From Nioella sediminis (lineage in GTDB: Bacteria > Pseudomonadota > Alphaproteobacteria > Rhodobacterales > Rhodobacteraceae), in NCBI RefSeq assembly GCF_001879695.1, contig NZ_MNBL01000054.1, positions 1 through 64,000 on the forward strand: a stretch of 64,000 nt of DNA. The letters run 5' to 3'. This document shows positions 42,641 through 53,018 of the stretch, in pieces. Both the position numbers and the translations under genes were made by a program. How positions within the stretch are numbered: position 1 is the stretch's first letter; each line of letters opens with the position of its first letter. The notes below the pieces were generated by a model that saw only the letters and a list, made by a program, of their open reading frames with translations, was not told where the DNA came from and did not search any database.

Positions 42641-43726
42641 ATGGGACTCTTCATTCTACGCCGGCTCGGCGTCATGATCCTGACCGCGCTTTGCCTCACA
42701 TTCGTGGTCTTCTTCCTCACCAATCTCGGCCCCAACCTCGAAAAGCTTGCCAAGACGCAGGGCAACGCCCGTATGACGGACGCAGAGGTTGTGCAGTGGC
42801 TCGACAATCGCGGCTACAGCCGCCCGCTGCTGGTGCGCTATGGCGAATGGCTCGGCGTGGCGCCGGGCTGGACGCGGGTTGCCCCCGACGGAACCGAGAC
42901 CGGGCGCTGTGTCGAACCGGGTGGAACCATCGCGGAATCGCCCACTTTCTGCGGGGTGTTCCAGGGGGATCTTGGCTATTCCACCGTCTCCGCCGATGAT
43001 GTGTCCAATGTTGTTGGCGGTCGCCTGGCGCTGACCGGCTGGCTGATGTTGCTGGCCTTCTCGGTCATGGTGCCCGCCGCGCTGATTGTCGGCATCCTCG
43101 CCGGGATGCGCGAAGGCAGTCGACTTGACCGTAGCCTTTCCACCTTCTCCATCGCGTCAACCGCGACGCCTGAATACGTGTCCGGGGTGATCTTCATCAT
43201 CCTTCTTGCCTCCTCCACCTCGGGCCTGTCGCCGTGGCTGGCGGAAAACGGCTGGATCGACGGGCGCACCTTGTTCCTTGGCTCGGCCCGGTCGGCAATG
43301 AATGACATCACCTTCTGGAACTTCACCCTGCCGGTGATCACCATCGCGCTTTACGGCATGGGCTACATCGCCCGGATGACCCGCGCCTCGATGGCCGAGG
43401 TCATGACGGCGCAATACATCCGTACCGCGCGCCTCAAGGGTGTCAGCTTCCGCAACATCGTGCTGAAGCATGCGCTTCGGAACGCGCTGATCGCGCCCTT
43501 CACCGTCATCATGTTGCAGATCCCATGGCTGCTGACCGGTGTGGTGATCGTCGAGACGCTCTTCAACTACAATGGCTTCGGCTGGACGCTGGTTGAAGCG
43601 GCGGGGAACAATGACATCGAAATGCTGCTGACCTGCTCGGTCGTGGCTGTCTTCGTGGTTCTGCTGACGCAGCTGATTTCAGATATCGGCTATGTCTACC
43701 TGAACCCGCGTATCCGCATCTCGTAA
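42641..43726 (+). CDS. ABC transporter permease, DppB type
   Basis: A 361-residue inner-membrane permease with about six helices; the first is MGLFILRRLGVMILTALCLTFVV. A large periplasmic loop (about 40-120) contains two cysteines (GRCVEPGG, TFCGVF) that could pair. The EAA loop that docks the ATPase is YIRTARLKGVSFRNIVLKHA. It is the first permease after the internal terminator; the second permease starts 13 bp after its stop. Confidence 0.9.
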   Translation: MGLFILRRLGVMILTALCLTFVVFFLTNLGPNLEKLAKTQGNARMTDAEVVQWLDNRGYSRPLLVRYGEWLGVAPGWTRVAPDGTETGRCVEPGGTIAESPTFCGVFQGDLGYSTVSADDVSNVVGGRLALTGWLMLLAFSVMVPAALIVGILAGMREGSRLDRSLSTFSIASTATPEYVSGVIFIILLASSTSGLSPWLAENGWIDGRTLFLGSARSAMNDITFWNFTLPVITIALYGMGYIARMTRASMAEVMTAQYIRTARLKGVSFRNIVLKHALRNALIAPFTVIMLQIPWLLTGVVIVETLFNYNGFGWTLVEAAGNNDIEMLLTCSVVAVFVVLLTQLISDIGYVYLNPRIRIS

Positions 43727-47655: not shown

Positions 47656-50600
47656 TTAGCTGCACCCGCTTGTCGCCCCGCAGGTGTTGCACTTCATGCA
47701 GGTGCCGTTGCGCACCAGCGTGTAGTTTCCGCAATCGCCGCAGGCCTCGCCCTCATAGCCCTGCATCTTCGCCTTGGTGCGTGCATCCATCCCAACGGTG
47801 CCAGAGGCCACGGCGGTGGTCGTCGTGGAGCTGACAGCGACGGTGTTGCGGGCCACTTCCGGCACCAGCGTTTCCAGCGTCGCCACCGGATCGCCCGCGC
47901 CATTCAGCGCCGTGATCGCCCCGGCCCCGCCTTGCAGGACCACCAGTTCCTGCGGCACCCGCTTGCGCAGATAGCCGGTCGAGGAAATCTGGCGCAGCAC
48001 GTCAATCGGCGACGCCCCATGGCTGTCCGGTACTTCCTCGAAATTGCGCACGCCCTCTTCCTGGCCCCGGCCGAGGCTGTCGAAAGTCGCGCCTTCCGGC
48101 TTCACATGCGCGAGGTCCGTGCGGTCCAGGTAGGACACCGCCAGTTCGCGGAAGATGTAGTCGAGGATCGAGGTGGCGTTCTTGATCGAGTCATTGCCCT
48201 GCACCATGCCCGCCGGTTCGAACTTGGTGAAGGTGAAGGCATCGACAAACTCCTCCAGCGGCACGCCGTATTGCAGGCCCACGGACACGGCGATTGCGAA
48301 GTTGTTCATCATCGCGCGGAAGCCGGCGCCTTCCTTGTGCATGTCGATGAAGATCTCACCAAGCGAACCATCGGCATATTCGCCGGTCCGCAGATAGACC
48401 TTGTGACCGCCAACAACCGCCTTTTGGGTATAGCCCTTGCGGCGTTCCGGCATCTTCTCGCGGTGGCTGCGGATGAGTTCCTTCACCACCACCTTCTCGA
48501 TGATCTTTTCGGCAAGAACCTGCGCCTTTTCAGCAGGGGTGCCGGTTTCCAGCACCTCGGCAGCTTCGTCATCATCCTCGACAAGCGCGGCTGCGAGCGG
48601 CTGGCTGAGTTTCGACCCGTCGCGATAGAGCGCATTGGCCTTCACGCCGAGCGACCAGCTGAGCTCATAGGCCTTCTGGCAATCCTCGATGGTCGCGTCA
48701 TTGGGCATGTTGATCGTCTTGGAGATCGCGCCCGAGATGAAGCTCTGCGCCGCCGCCATCATCGTGATGTGGCTGTTGACGCTGAGGAAGCGCTTACCCT
48801 TCTTGCCGCAGGGATTGGCGCAGTCGAAGACGTGGTAATGCTCTTCCTTCAGATGCGGCGCGCCTTCCAGCGTCATCGTCCCGCAGACATGGTCATTCGC
48901 GGCTTCGATATCCTTCCGGGCGAAGCCGAAATGGCGCAGCATGTCGAAGGTTGGGTCATTGAGCTTCGCTGCCGGAATGCCGAGCACCTTGGTGCAGAAC
49001 TCCTCGCCCAGGGTCCACTGGTTGAACACGAAGCGGATGTCGAAGGCGGACGGCAGTGCTGCCTCGATTTTCTCAATCTCTGCATCGCCAAAGCCATGGC
49101 CTCGCAACGCGGTGTGGTTGATGATGGGCGCATTGCCCAGGGTGCCGTGACCGACCGCGTGCGAGGTGATTTCCTCGATCTGCGAGGTGGAATAGCCCAG
49201 TTTTTCAAGCGCCGCAGGCACCGACTGGTTGATGATCTTGAAGTAGCCACCACCGGCCAGCTTCTTGAACTTCACAAGCGCGAAATCGGGCTCGATCCCG
49301 GTCGTGTCGCAATCCATGACCAGACCGATGGTCCCGGTCGGGGCAATCACCGACACCTGCGCGTTGCGGTAACCGTGCTTCTCACCAAGCGCCAACGCCT
49401 CGTCCCAGGCCTGTTCGGACAGGGCAATCAGCGTCTGGTCGGGGCAGCTGGCGTGATCCAGCGGGACCGGCTTCACGGCCAGGTCCTCATAGCCATCCGC
49501 AGCGCCTTGGGCCGCGCGGCGGTGGTTGCGGATCACGCGGAGCATGTGCTCACGGTTGCGCTCAAAGCCCGAGAACGGCCCAAGCTCGCCTGCAATCTCG
49601 GCCGAGGTCGCGTAGGCCACACCGGTCATGATCGCGGTCAGGGCGCCGCCCATGGCCCGGCCCTCGTCCGAGTCATAGCCGAGACCCATATTCATCAGCA
49701 GACCGCCGATATTGGCGTAGCCAAGGCCAAGGGTGCGGAAGTCGTAGCTGAGCTGCGCGATTTCCTTGGACGGGAACTGCGCCATCATCACCGAGATTTC
49801 CAGCGTCAGCGTCCACAGCCGCGTGGCGTGCATATAGCTTTCCGCGTCGAACTTGCCGTCGCTGTAAAAAGTCAGCAGGTTCATCGAGGCGAGGTTACAG
49901 GCCGTGTCATCAAGGAACATGTATTCCGAACACGGGTTCGAGCCCCGGATCGCGCCATCTTCCGGGCAGGTGTGCCAGGAATTCACGGTATCATGGAACT
50001 GGATGCCCGGATCGGCGCAGGCCCAGGCCGCGTGGCCGATCGTATCCCACAGCTCGCGCGCCTTGACCGTCTTGGACACCTTGCCATTGGTGCGGTTGAT
50101 CAGGTCCCAATCGCCATCTTCGTCCACGGCCTTCAGGAAGGCATCTGTGACGCGGATGGAGTTGTTGGAGTTCTGGCCGGAAACCGAGTTATAGGCTTCC
50201 GAATCCCAATCCGTGTCATAGGTCGGGAATTCGATGCTGGTGTGACCCTGCTTCGCGTAATCCAGCACCCGCTTGATGTAAGTCTCGGGGATCGCGCATT
50301 TTTTCGCGCTACGGATGGCGGCTTTCAGGGTCTCGTTCTTGGCCGGGTCAACCGCGTCTTCCAGCTTGCCGTCCCACGCGGCGATGGCCGAGAAGATATT
50401 GTTCAGCTCGCGCTCATGCATCTTGGAACCGGCGACGATGGAGGCAACTTTCTGCTCCTCCAACACCTTCCAGTTGATGAACTCCTCGATATCGGGGTGG
50501 TCGGCATCAACGATGACCATCTTGGCCGCGCGCCGCGTGGTGCCGCCCGACTTGATCGCGCCCGCTGCCCGGTCGCCGATCTTGAGGAAGCCCATAAGGC

Positions 50601-51357
50601 CCGAGGACTTGCCGCCACCCGACAGCGCCTCGCCTTCGGCCCGCAGGGAGGAGAAATTGGTGCCAGTGCCGGAGCCGTATTTGAACAGACGCGCCTCACG
50701 CACCCACAGGTCCATGATGCCGCCTTCATTCACCAGATCATCGCTGACCGACTGGATGAAACAGGCATGGGGCTGCGGATGTTCGTAGGACGAGGTGGAT
50801 TTGGTCAGTTTGCCGGTCTTGTGGTCCACGTAGTGGTGGCCCTGCGCGGGACCGTCGATGCCATAGGCCCAATGCAGGCCAGTGTTAAACCACTGAGGAG
50901 AGTTCGGCGCCGCCATCTGGCGGGCCAACATCAGCTGCATCTCATCGAAATAGGCGCGGGCATCTTCTTCGGTGGTGAAGTAGCCCCCTTTCCAGCCCCA
51001 GTAGCACCAGGCCCCGGCCAGACGGCGGAAGACCTGCTTGGCCGAGGTTTCCCCGCCGAACCGCTGATCCTCCGGCAGATCCGCCAGCGCGACCTCATCA
51101 GGCACATGACGCCACAGGAAGGACGGCACGCCCTTTTCCTTGACCGGTTTCAGGATCGCGGCGACCCCGGCCTTGCGGAAGTATTTCTGCGCCAGAACAT
51201 CAGACGCGACCTGGCTCCAGCCGACGGGTACTTCAACGCCATCCAGCTTGAACACGGTGGTGCCATCAGGATTGCGAATCTCGGAAGATGTCAGGCTGAA
51301 TTCCAGGTCCGCATAGGTGTCCTGGTCCGCTTTGGTGAAACGGCGTTCGATCTTCAT
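47656..51357 (-). CDS. nrdJ: adenosylcobalamin-dependent (class II) ribonucleotide reductase
   Basis: A 1233-residue vitamin B12-dependent reductase producing deoxyribonucleotides, active with or without oxygen. The substrate- and radical-site regions are in place ([43 protein letters not shown] near the N-terminus). The C-terminal tail carries a four-cysteine cluster (CGDCGNYTL and [14 protein letters not shown]), probably zinc-binding or redox-active. At 1233 residues it is typical of this large alphaproteobacterial form. Its start is preceded by a long untranslated region described separately. Cobalamin supply must come from elsewhere, since no cob genes are in the window. Confidence 0.96.
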
Positions 51358-51780
51358 GGTCTGCCTCTAGTCCCTGTGCGTGCGCGGCGTGCCAGCGTGT
51401 CCCCGCTCTTGCCGTCGTGGTTCCCTTCATGTCGGGCAGCAAGTCGACGTGCCGTGGCCCCCCAGAACCCGGTTACGGCTGCAAAGCCGTTCTGTCTTAG
51501 ATGTGAAGACCATCTGCCCCTTGGTGCCTGCGGCCACTACATTTAGTGCTGCCCCGCTCGACAGCTACAAACTGACGTATCCACGCATAGGGCGTCAACG
51601 GGTTTTTTTTACTTTACCGTTACAAATATCCCTTGCATTGAGGGCAATCCACAGCCCCGCCTGCGGCCATCCGATTCACGCGTATCCTTTTGGACAGGTT
51701 TTCCGCTGACAACAGCGGCAGTTACGCGGTGAAGGGAAAGTGTCGCCTTGGATCGCGTTAGGAAACACTAATTGTGGGGG
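51358..51780 (-). ncRNA. long structured leader upstream of nrdJ (candidate regulatory RNA)
   Basis: This stretch of about 420 bp upstream of nrdJ has no protein-like frame. It holds several stems: a 6-bp stem with tetraloop at 51475-51490, a 5-bp stem at 51535-51548, and two alternatives that cannot coexist (51494-51510 or 51499-51515). A 7-bp long-range match joins gggcagc at 51434-51440 with gctgccc at 51549-51555. I looked for the adenosylcobalamin riboswitch (conserved B12 box order) and did not find it. The role as a regulator or separate RNA is inference. Confidence 0.4.
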
Positions 51781-51877: not shown

Positions 51878-52831
51878 CTATAGCCGCCCGAGGGACACCG
51901 CGAGCCACAGGGCGGCCTGCCCGGCGCGGCCCTGTCGATAGATGCCCAATTCCCGAAAGCTGCGCAGGCGGGACACCATATCTTGTGTCCGGATACAGGT
52001 GAACCGATCCAGCAGCGCGCGGTTCTCTGGCGTCAGGCGATGCGCGGACACCGACAAAGCGCGGGCATTGCAGGCGGTCCAGACGGCCAGATCGCCCGAG
52101 GTGACCATCCTCAACCTCTTCAGCGCTGCACGCGTTCCAAGGTTCGTGCCGAAGAGGTTGTCGCCATGCTGCCGGTAAAGCACTGTGGGCTGCTCGCCGC
52201 GGATGACCTGCCCGCCTGCACCACTGATCAACTGGTAGAGCCACCAGTCATGGGTCACCGGCAGGCAATCCGCCGCCAGCGCCTCTGCCGCCGCGGCGCG
52301 GGCCAGATCCACTCCGGCCCGGTTCAGAAGCATCGTGTTGCCACCGGCGATGCTTTGCACCAGGGCATTGCGAAATCCGGGCGGGCGAGAGAACCGCGGA
52401 GACTGACGGCGATCGCTCAGATCCTCTTTGACAATCCAGGTGGCGCTGCCAAAGAGCGCCGGCACCTCTGGCGGGATTCCCGACAGCGCCTCCTGGCCCC
52501 GTTCCAGCCGGTCGGGCAACCAGACATCGTCCTGATCGGACAGGGCCGCCCAGTCAGTGCCTTCGGTCAGTCCCGCCAGCAGCGACAGGAAATTCGCGGC
52601 AACACCCCGGCCCGGCCCGGCGATCAGGGCTACGGAGCGTCCCTTTTCGTGCTGCGCGCGAGCAAAATCCGTCACCATCCGCGGCCCCATATCCTGCGAT
52701 CCATCGTCGCTGACGATCAGATCCCAATCCGGCACGGTCTGATTGGCGAAACTGGTCAACTGGTCATCCAGAAAGGGGGCTCCGTCGAACAGCCCCATGA
52801 GAATCGCGGTGCGGCCCGTCCCGCCAGCCAT
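51878..52831 (-). CDS. GT2-family glycosyltransferase
   Basis: A 317-residue family 2 glycosyltransferase of the GT-A fold. The nucleotide-sugar site is visible as IVSDDGSQD and the metal/acceptor region as ALSDQDDVW, with THDWWLYQL further on. The C-terminal 80 residues are helical. It probably adds a sugar to a cell-surface glycan, with no partner genes beside it. ATG 52831 ([11 protein letters not shown]) has GGAAAAG upstream; ATG 52855 and GTG 52858 are alternatives. It is flanked by the tRNA-Pro gene and nrdJ, all on the minus strand. Confidence 0.87.
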
Positions 52832-52941: not shown

Positions 52942-53018
52942 TGGTCGGGGAGGCGAGATTCGAACTCACGGCCTTCTGTACCCAAAACAGACGCGCTACC
53001 AGGCTGCGCTACACCCCG
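52942..53018 (-). tRNA. tRNA-Pro (anticodon TGG), CCA encoded
   Basis: The minus strand gives a 77-nt cloverleaf. The acceptor stem is CGGGGTG ... CTCCCCG with one mismatch (position 6 with 67, T-T), the D stem is GCGC/GCGC, the anticodon stem is TCTGT/ACAGA with loop TTTGGGT, and the T arm is GTGAG-TTCGAAT-CTCGC. Discriminator A and encoded CCA follow. The anticodon TGG reads CCN proline codons. Confidence 0.95.

Follow-up and report, generated by a model that had tools for sequence, protein, structure and literature searches.

A candidate regulatory RNA element in the putative nrdJ mRNA leader of Nioella sediminis: about 200 bases with a conserved hairpin that has no match among catalogued RNA families

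The window analysed here, a stretch of 64,000 nucleotides from the Rhodobacteraceae member Nioella sediminis (host genome, 3.96 Mb), carries nrdJ on its minus strand (47656-51357, start codon at 51357-51355), annotated from the list of open reading frames as a B12-dependent ribonucleotide reductase of 1233 amino acids. Class II ribonucleotide reductases require B12. The first 213 amino acids of the product match 248 of the 254 genomes sampled in the order. The gap 5' of the gene, about 520 bp, holds no gene-like frame, and the next gene upstream is a glycosyltransferase-like frame, also on the minus strand, that ends at 51878; further upstream of this neighbour lies a tRNA-Pro (TGG) at 52942-53018 on the minus strand. 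A preliminary description of the region had reported no protein-like frame before nrdJ, and we agree: the one sizeable open reading frame in the gap, 109 amino acids from a GTG on the plus strand (51380-51709), looks mechanical rather than coding because the antisense frames of the leader show scattered stops across the genus. A Shine-Dalgarno-like AGAGG (51364-51368, minus strand) stands 6 nt before the ATG, and in the leaders of the family GAGGCAG or GGGGCAG is enriched about 11-12 nt before the ATG. Outside the genes, conservation in an eight-genome alignment was concentrated at three places: a block at about 51534-51640 with two NrdR boxes and GTTGAC, a TGAATC upstream of it, and a block adjoining the start codon. 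Above about 51640 conservation is restricted to the nearest relatives, and 51640-51780 is kept only in the two nearest genomes. At about 51620-51680, upstream of the −35 element, TTGCAA...TTTTGT-like and TGAATC bits are conserved in eight genus-level sequences, and in the family consensus a GTCAA stands some 57 nt upstream of box 1; these are perhaps the site of another regulator.

The promoter region is organized around the two NrdR boxes, which the preliminary description had missed and which set the 5' end of the leader. Box 2 (GCACTAAATGTAGTGG, 51534-51549, minus strand) is conserved in the genus alignment and recurs in the upstream regions of the family. Box 1 (ATACGTCAGTTTGTAG, 51565-51580, minus strand) lies 31 bp from box 2; it is weak in the window (8 of 15; consensus aTACG.CAg.TTGTG) and overlaps CAGTTT, a −10-like hexamer. 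A −35-like TTGACG is found at 51593-51598 on the minus strand, identified by its position relative to box 1 in the family, and upstream of it an A-tract (T8 on the plus strand; 51604-51611, read on the minus strand), apparent in both the genus conservation and the family consensus, may act as an UP-element. The paired-box score was above threshold in all 116 family upstream regions, with a spacing of 31 in 91 of them and 32 in 25 (the scan also permitted 30), and a single box scored at least 11 in 109 of the 116. In 92 of 114 upstream regions a TTGAC, TTGAT or TTGCC stands at −18 relative to box 1, and in 10 of 114 at −17; if the spacer is 18 nt, the CAGnTT conserved within box 1 falls at the −10 position. 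From the −35 element, this spacer and the CAGnTT at −10, we infer that nrdJ transcription starts near 51562, which would give a leader of about 200 nt (51358-51562, minus strand), its 5' end being uncertain by several nucleotides. The leader had been described as unusually long, at some 420 bp; it would be about half that length and ordinary for the family, in which the distance from the NrdR box to the ATG has a median of 196 nt (quartiles 182 and 212). Indeed, a promoter-like −35 with tandem NrdR boxes about 190-240 nt upstream recurs at a near-fixed distance across Rhodobacteraceae. In 48 upstream regions of the class outside Rhodobacteraceae the box distance was scattered, from 28 to 235 nt among 34 strong pairs, and the fixed leader length is therefore a feature of the family. 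The nrdR gene is itself encoded in the genome (TIGR00244, E 1.1e-48), and the two boxes lie about three helical turns apart, the spacing given for NrdR in PMC9110341.

We then asked whether the leader is structured, as had been claimed from this one sequence. In that form the claim did not hold, since the 423-nt stretch folded no better than its dinucleotide shuffles (MFE z +0.86; 80 of 100 shuffles folded as well) and neither did the plus strand (z +0.20). Over the family, the whole-leader MFE signal was modest (mean z −0.83 vs −0.40 for the upstream control). The absence of an adenosylcobalamin riboswitch, on the other hand, was borne out by covariance models: the Rfam search of the leader returned neither a cobalamin riboswitch nor another family at E<=5, save a sub-threshold RAGATH-35 match on the opposite strand (E 4.5), and no Rfam 15 family reached its gathering score or a credible E-value there. 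On 20 other leader loci the search gave tRNA matches only and no cobalamin riboswitch. Rfam matched the window twice, with Cis52_sRNA and with tRNA-Pro, in each case outside the leader; the former, a Ruegeria small RNA, is a strong match (132.7 bits) at 43305-43482 on the minus strand. Elsewhere in the genome there are two cobalamin riboswitches, at G000:C73:17076-17285 and G000:C190:5119-5349.

Comparison between leaders was more informative than single-sequence folding. From genus to genus the leaders have little sequence in common but resemble each other in layout. The first component of this layout is a long-range helix, P1, whose 5' strand in the window is GGGCAG (51514-51519, minus strand, about 30 nt after the start of box 2) and whose 3' strand is CTGCCC (51434-51439, minus strand). 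In the window P1 has only 6 bp and is absent from the MFE structure. The preliminary description had singled out a long-range match that is indeed present, as 8 nt pairing 51434-51441 with 51547-51554, its coordinates having been one base off; by our own estimate, chance would give about two perfect inverted matches of 8 bp in a sequence of 541 bp. This match uses the position-conserved 3' strand of P1, and its 5' partner is a second GGGCAG copy that touches the edge of NrdR box 2. Evidence for P1 came from partner-swap tests across the family. The first set covered 108 of the 128 genomes matched in the genome search (our own count), and 105 of its 116 leaders remained once two near copies of the window (L073 and L044) and leaders shorter than 150 nt had been dropped. 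In an alignment-free test on these 105, the 5' and middle parts of a leader paired better with each other than with those of other genera (−33.6 vs −31.87 kcal/mol, sd 0.41; 0 of 5000 permutations), and a position map placed the pairing signal at 20-50 nt after the start of box 2 against 70-100 nt before the ATG. Fixed P1 windows, chosen after viewing this first set, scored 17.59 for own and 16.41 for swapped partners (2 of 20000 permutations), the four control windows giving z −0.83, −0.35, −0.03 and −2.09. The second set, drawn from the same family, comprised 105 leaders, of which 88 remained after filtering for length and redundancy, with L185 and L193 left out; 7 of the 105 had weak NrdR boxes, which was no ground for removal. 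With the windows unchanged, these 88 new leaders gave z 2.20 (315 of 20000 permutations; controls −0.20, 0.18 and 0.07), suggesting a modest P1 effect in an independent set. For the combined 193 leaders with G-U pairs allowed, no permutation in 20000 reached the observed value and z was 4.53, vs 3.52 with Watson-Crick pairs only and 3.64 with A-C allowed; the gain with G-U over A-C favours the nrdJ sense strand.

Between the P1 strands lie local hairpins, represented in the window by ACGGCTTTGCAGCCGT (51475-51490, minus strand). Family-wide, local hairpins are enriched over shuffles in the middle of the leader (z 8.6 and 8.5) and towards its 3' end (z 7.1); the 5' part has fewer of them than shuffles (z −3.0). 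Two short words also recur among the 114 Rhodobacteraceae leaders: AGGGACA about 29 nt after the start of box 2 (20 leaders, 2.3 expected) and CGGCACG about 65 nt before the ATG (17 leaders, 4.2 expected). A conserved leader peptide was not found, internal open reading frames of at least 12 amino acids being no more frequent in the leaders (130 of 193) than in shuffled ones (135), and a minus-strand scan for an intrinsic terminator or attenuator revealed no G+C-rich stem followed by a U-run. Homologues on plasmids were looked for and not found.

The last component, P4 (51384-51415, minus strand), is a two-stem hairpin located just before the ribosome-binding site. It consists of an outer stem ACGGC/GCCGC, an internal loop AAG/GGCAC, an inner stem AGCG/CGCT and a 6-nt loop. 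We aligned 14 distinct sequences (alignment A3, one row per type), taken from leaders in which covariance model R1 or inspection by eye found the hairpin. The asymmetric internal loop (5' AG / 3' GGCA) is invariant in all of them, and the stems vary: the inner one changes from AGCG/CGCT to AGGG/CCCT, and in the outer one a pair occurs as C-G, U-A or U-G, while a second pair goes from G-C to A-U. Changes on both sides affect 4 of the 10 pairs, in 12 such cells. The compensatory changes in relatives that the preliminary description had proposed to look for are thus present. The covariation score was 0.238, vs 0.107 (sd 0.021) in shuffles, none of 500 shuffles reaching it, and it fell to between 0 and 0.089 in slid registers. 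The loop is 6, 7 or 8 nt long, which speaks against a coding frame and against a DNA site of fixed spacing; these length changes shift the reading frame and so also count against a conserved leader peptide. P4 lies 21-56 nt from the start codon, clear of the Shine-Dalgarno sequence and at a variable distance from it, and at a fairly constant 116-151 nt from NrdR box 2. In genus g378 (L187-L192) an extra hairpin of the CCTGG...CCAGG type stands between P4 and the Shine-Dalgarno sequence. The TGGCAC in P4 was also considered as a sigma-54 element and rejected by eye, since the −12 element is not kept.

P4 is limited to part of the family and closely tied to nrdJ. The exact core occurs once per genome in all six genomes of the genus, and model R1 found the hairpin in both genomes of a neighbouring genus and, in additional genera, more diverged versions of it upstream of nrdJ. 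Searched against 394 family genomes, R1 matched 11, three strongly and eight marginally (E 0.006-0.08); only one of the marginal matches (G293) precedes nrdJ. The improved model R2 on the same 394 also matched 11 genomes, six of them at E<=1.2e-7 and all six within about 60 nt before nrdJ; the other five were weak (E 0.003-0.009), with nrdJ on a different contig or at a great distance. Of 100 loci searched, 11 gave a strong R2 match, always before nrdJ; none of the 80 first-set loci did. The range of P4 is thus roughly six genera near Nioella, with absence from most of Rhodobacteraceae and losses within genus g235, where of three genomes L183 carries it and L184 and L194 lack it. A loose P4 pattern run over the genome collection gave 42 stretches; nrdJ followed directly in 7, and the 35 without nrdJ behind them were rejected as looking like chance.

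Altogether, P4 covariation, the P1 swap tests and the constant gene association (6 of 6 strong R2 matches) are what a cis-regulatory leader should show. The idea of an RNA regulator other than the cobalamin riboswitch is strengthened by the compensatory changes in P4, the position-conserved P1 and the lack of a credible Rfam family, with the leader at about half its claimed length. That the leader is ordinary and unstructured, its apparent structure arising by chance, would agree with the single-sequence z-scores and is highly improbable given that P4 covariation and the P1 swap tests both disfavour it. The strand is less clear. The promoter-like elements and the strand preference of P1 would place the leader in the nrdJ transcript, whereas the pair types of P4 lean the opposite way: its 140 pair cells include 16 A-C and 3 G-U in the sense orientation, where 123 are paired, vs 136 on the plus strand, on which the A-C cells become G-U. 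These A-C cells are found at either end of the outer stem. Taken alone this count favours the plus strand, and P4 statistics do not settle the matter. P4 could then belong to an antisense or independent small RNA that overlaps the leader on the plus strand and ends near the T8 run; a weak repeat, TGACG/CGTCA, precedes this run at 51573-51597. We consider this unlikely: the repeat is short and its loop long, it is not conserved in L076, L060 or the L053/L097 genome, it is accounted for by the −35 element and NrdR box 1, and it is absent from the results of the terminator scan; on the plus strand the analysis turned up neither a promoter nor a conserved terminator, and P1 favours the sense strand.

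About equally doubtful is the reading of P4 as the palindromic DNA binding site of a regulator. Inverted repeats keep their symmetry at the DNA level too, and the fairly constant distance to NrdR box 2 would suit such a site, but the spacing between the arms varies from 6 to 8 nt, two nested stems enclose a conserved asymmetric internal loop, and three cells are G-U. A more serious possibility, though still one we hold to be distinctly less probable than regulation, is that the structure stabilizes the mRNA or provides a ribosome standby site and senses nothing; hairpins close to the start codon are enriched family-wide and P4 itself is clade-restricted. Against such a passive role, the internal loop is nearly invariant while the stems covary, which goes beyond the needs of a passive stem.

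We therefore regard as the most probable reading, on comparative sequence evidence and with somewhat better than even confidence, an NrdR-controlled nrdJ promoter followed by a structured mRNA leader of about 200 nt that acts in cis after initiation, with P4 as a recognition site. It draws on the tandem NrdR boxes, the near-constant distance from the boxes to the ATG, a position-conserved P1 around central hairpins and a clade-limited P4. In this scenario transcription would start near 51562 and NrdR would repress initiation at high dATP; the leader would then adjust nrdJ expression in cis, P4 possibly being recognized by a protein or a small molecule that alters ribosome access or nrdJ mRNA stability. 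P4 by itself is unlikely to act by direct occlusion, because it lies off the Shine-Dalgarno sequence at variable spacing; with that sequence free and the ATG 21 to 56 nt away, P4 is more probably a recognition element than a mere lid. We also speculate, as a long shot, that the Rhodobacteraceae nrdJ leader is an uncatalogued metabolite-sensing RNA that has no relation to the cobalamin riboswitch; P1, the central hairpins and P4 would then form a switch that adds to NrdR control by coupling synthesis of the B12-dependent reductase to a (deoxy)nucleotide or to adenosylcobalamin.

The element appears to be new, as a structured mRNA leader with no Rfam family match and no counterpart in the literature searched. 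The main texts of three surveys of structured RNAs (PMC2864571, PMC8632094 and PMC3766115) mention neither nrdJ nor ribonucleotide reductase, and a full-text search, with most subscription papers outside its reach, gave no title on an nrdJ leader element. The class II reductase is widespread (248 of 254 sampled genomes of the order), yet no Rfam RNA element matches its leader here. A defined hairpin with testable pairs would offer a concrete route to the question of how these bacteria match the supply of DNA precursors to cofactor or nucleotide levels beyond NrdR.

Several known systems resemble this leader in part. The cobalamin riboswitch (RF00174) is likewise a leader RNA of B12-related genes, with two copies in this very genome, but matches neither the nrdJ leader nor the 20 other leader loci. 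The SAM/SAH riboswitch (RF01727), described in PMC2864571, is a small RNA restricted to the order and located just upstream of one gene, in Rhodobacterales metK leaders; that gene is a different one, and the nrdJ leader has no Rfam match. HRC-8-4 and uORFC-8-2, Rhodobacterales motifs described in the main text of PMC8632094, are also order-restricted structured elements near metabolic genes, but they are sited at cco operons and cysS, with nrdJ absent from that main text; uORFC-8-2 moreover looks, from the same text, like a ribosome-mediated attenuator, whereas the nrdJ leaders are not enriched in internal open reading frames. At the promoter the parallel is the NrdR regulon: nrdJ is preceded by two boxes in tandem at a spacing of 31 bp, in line with PMC9110341, and the genome has an nrdR gene; NrdR would account for the promoter, but not for the structured leader of about 200 nt that probably follows it.
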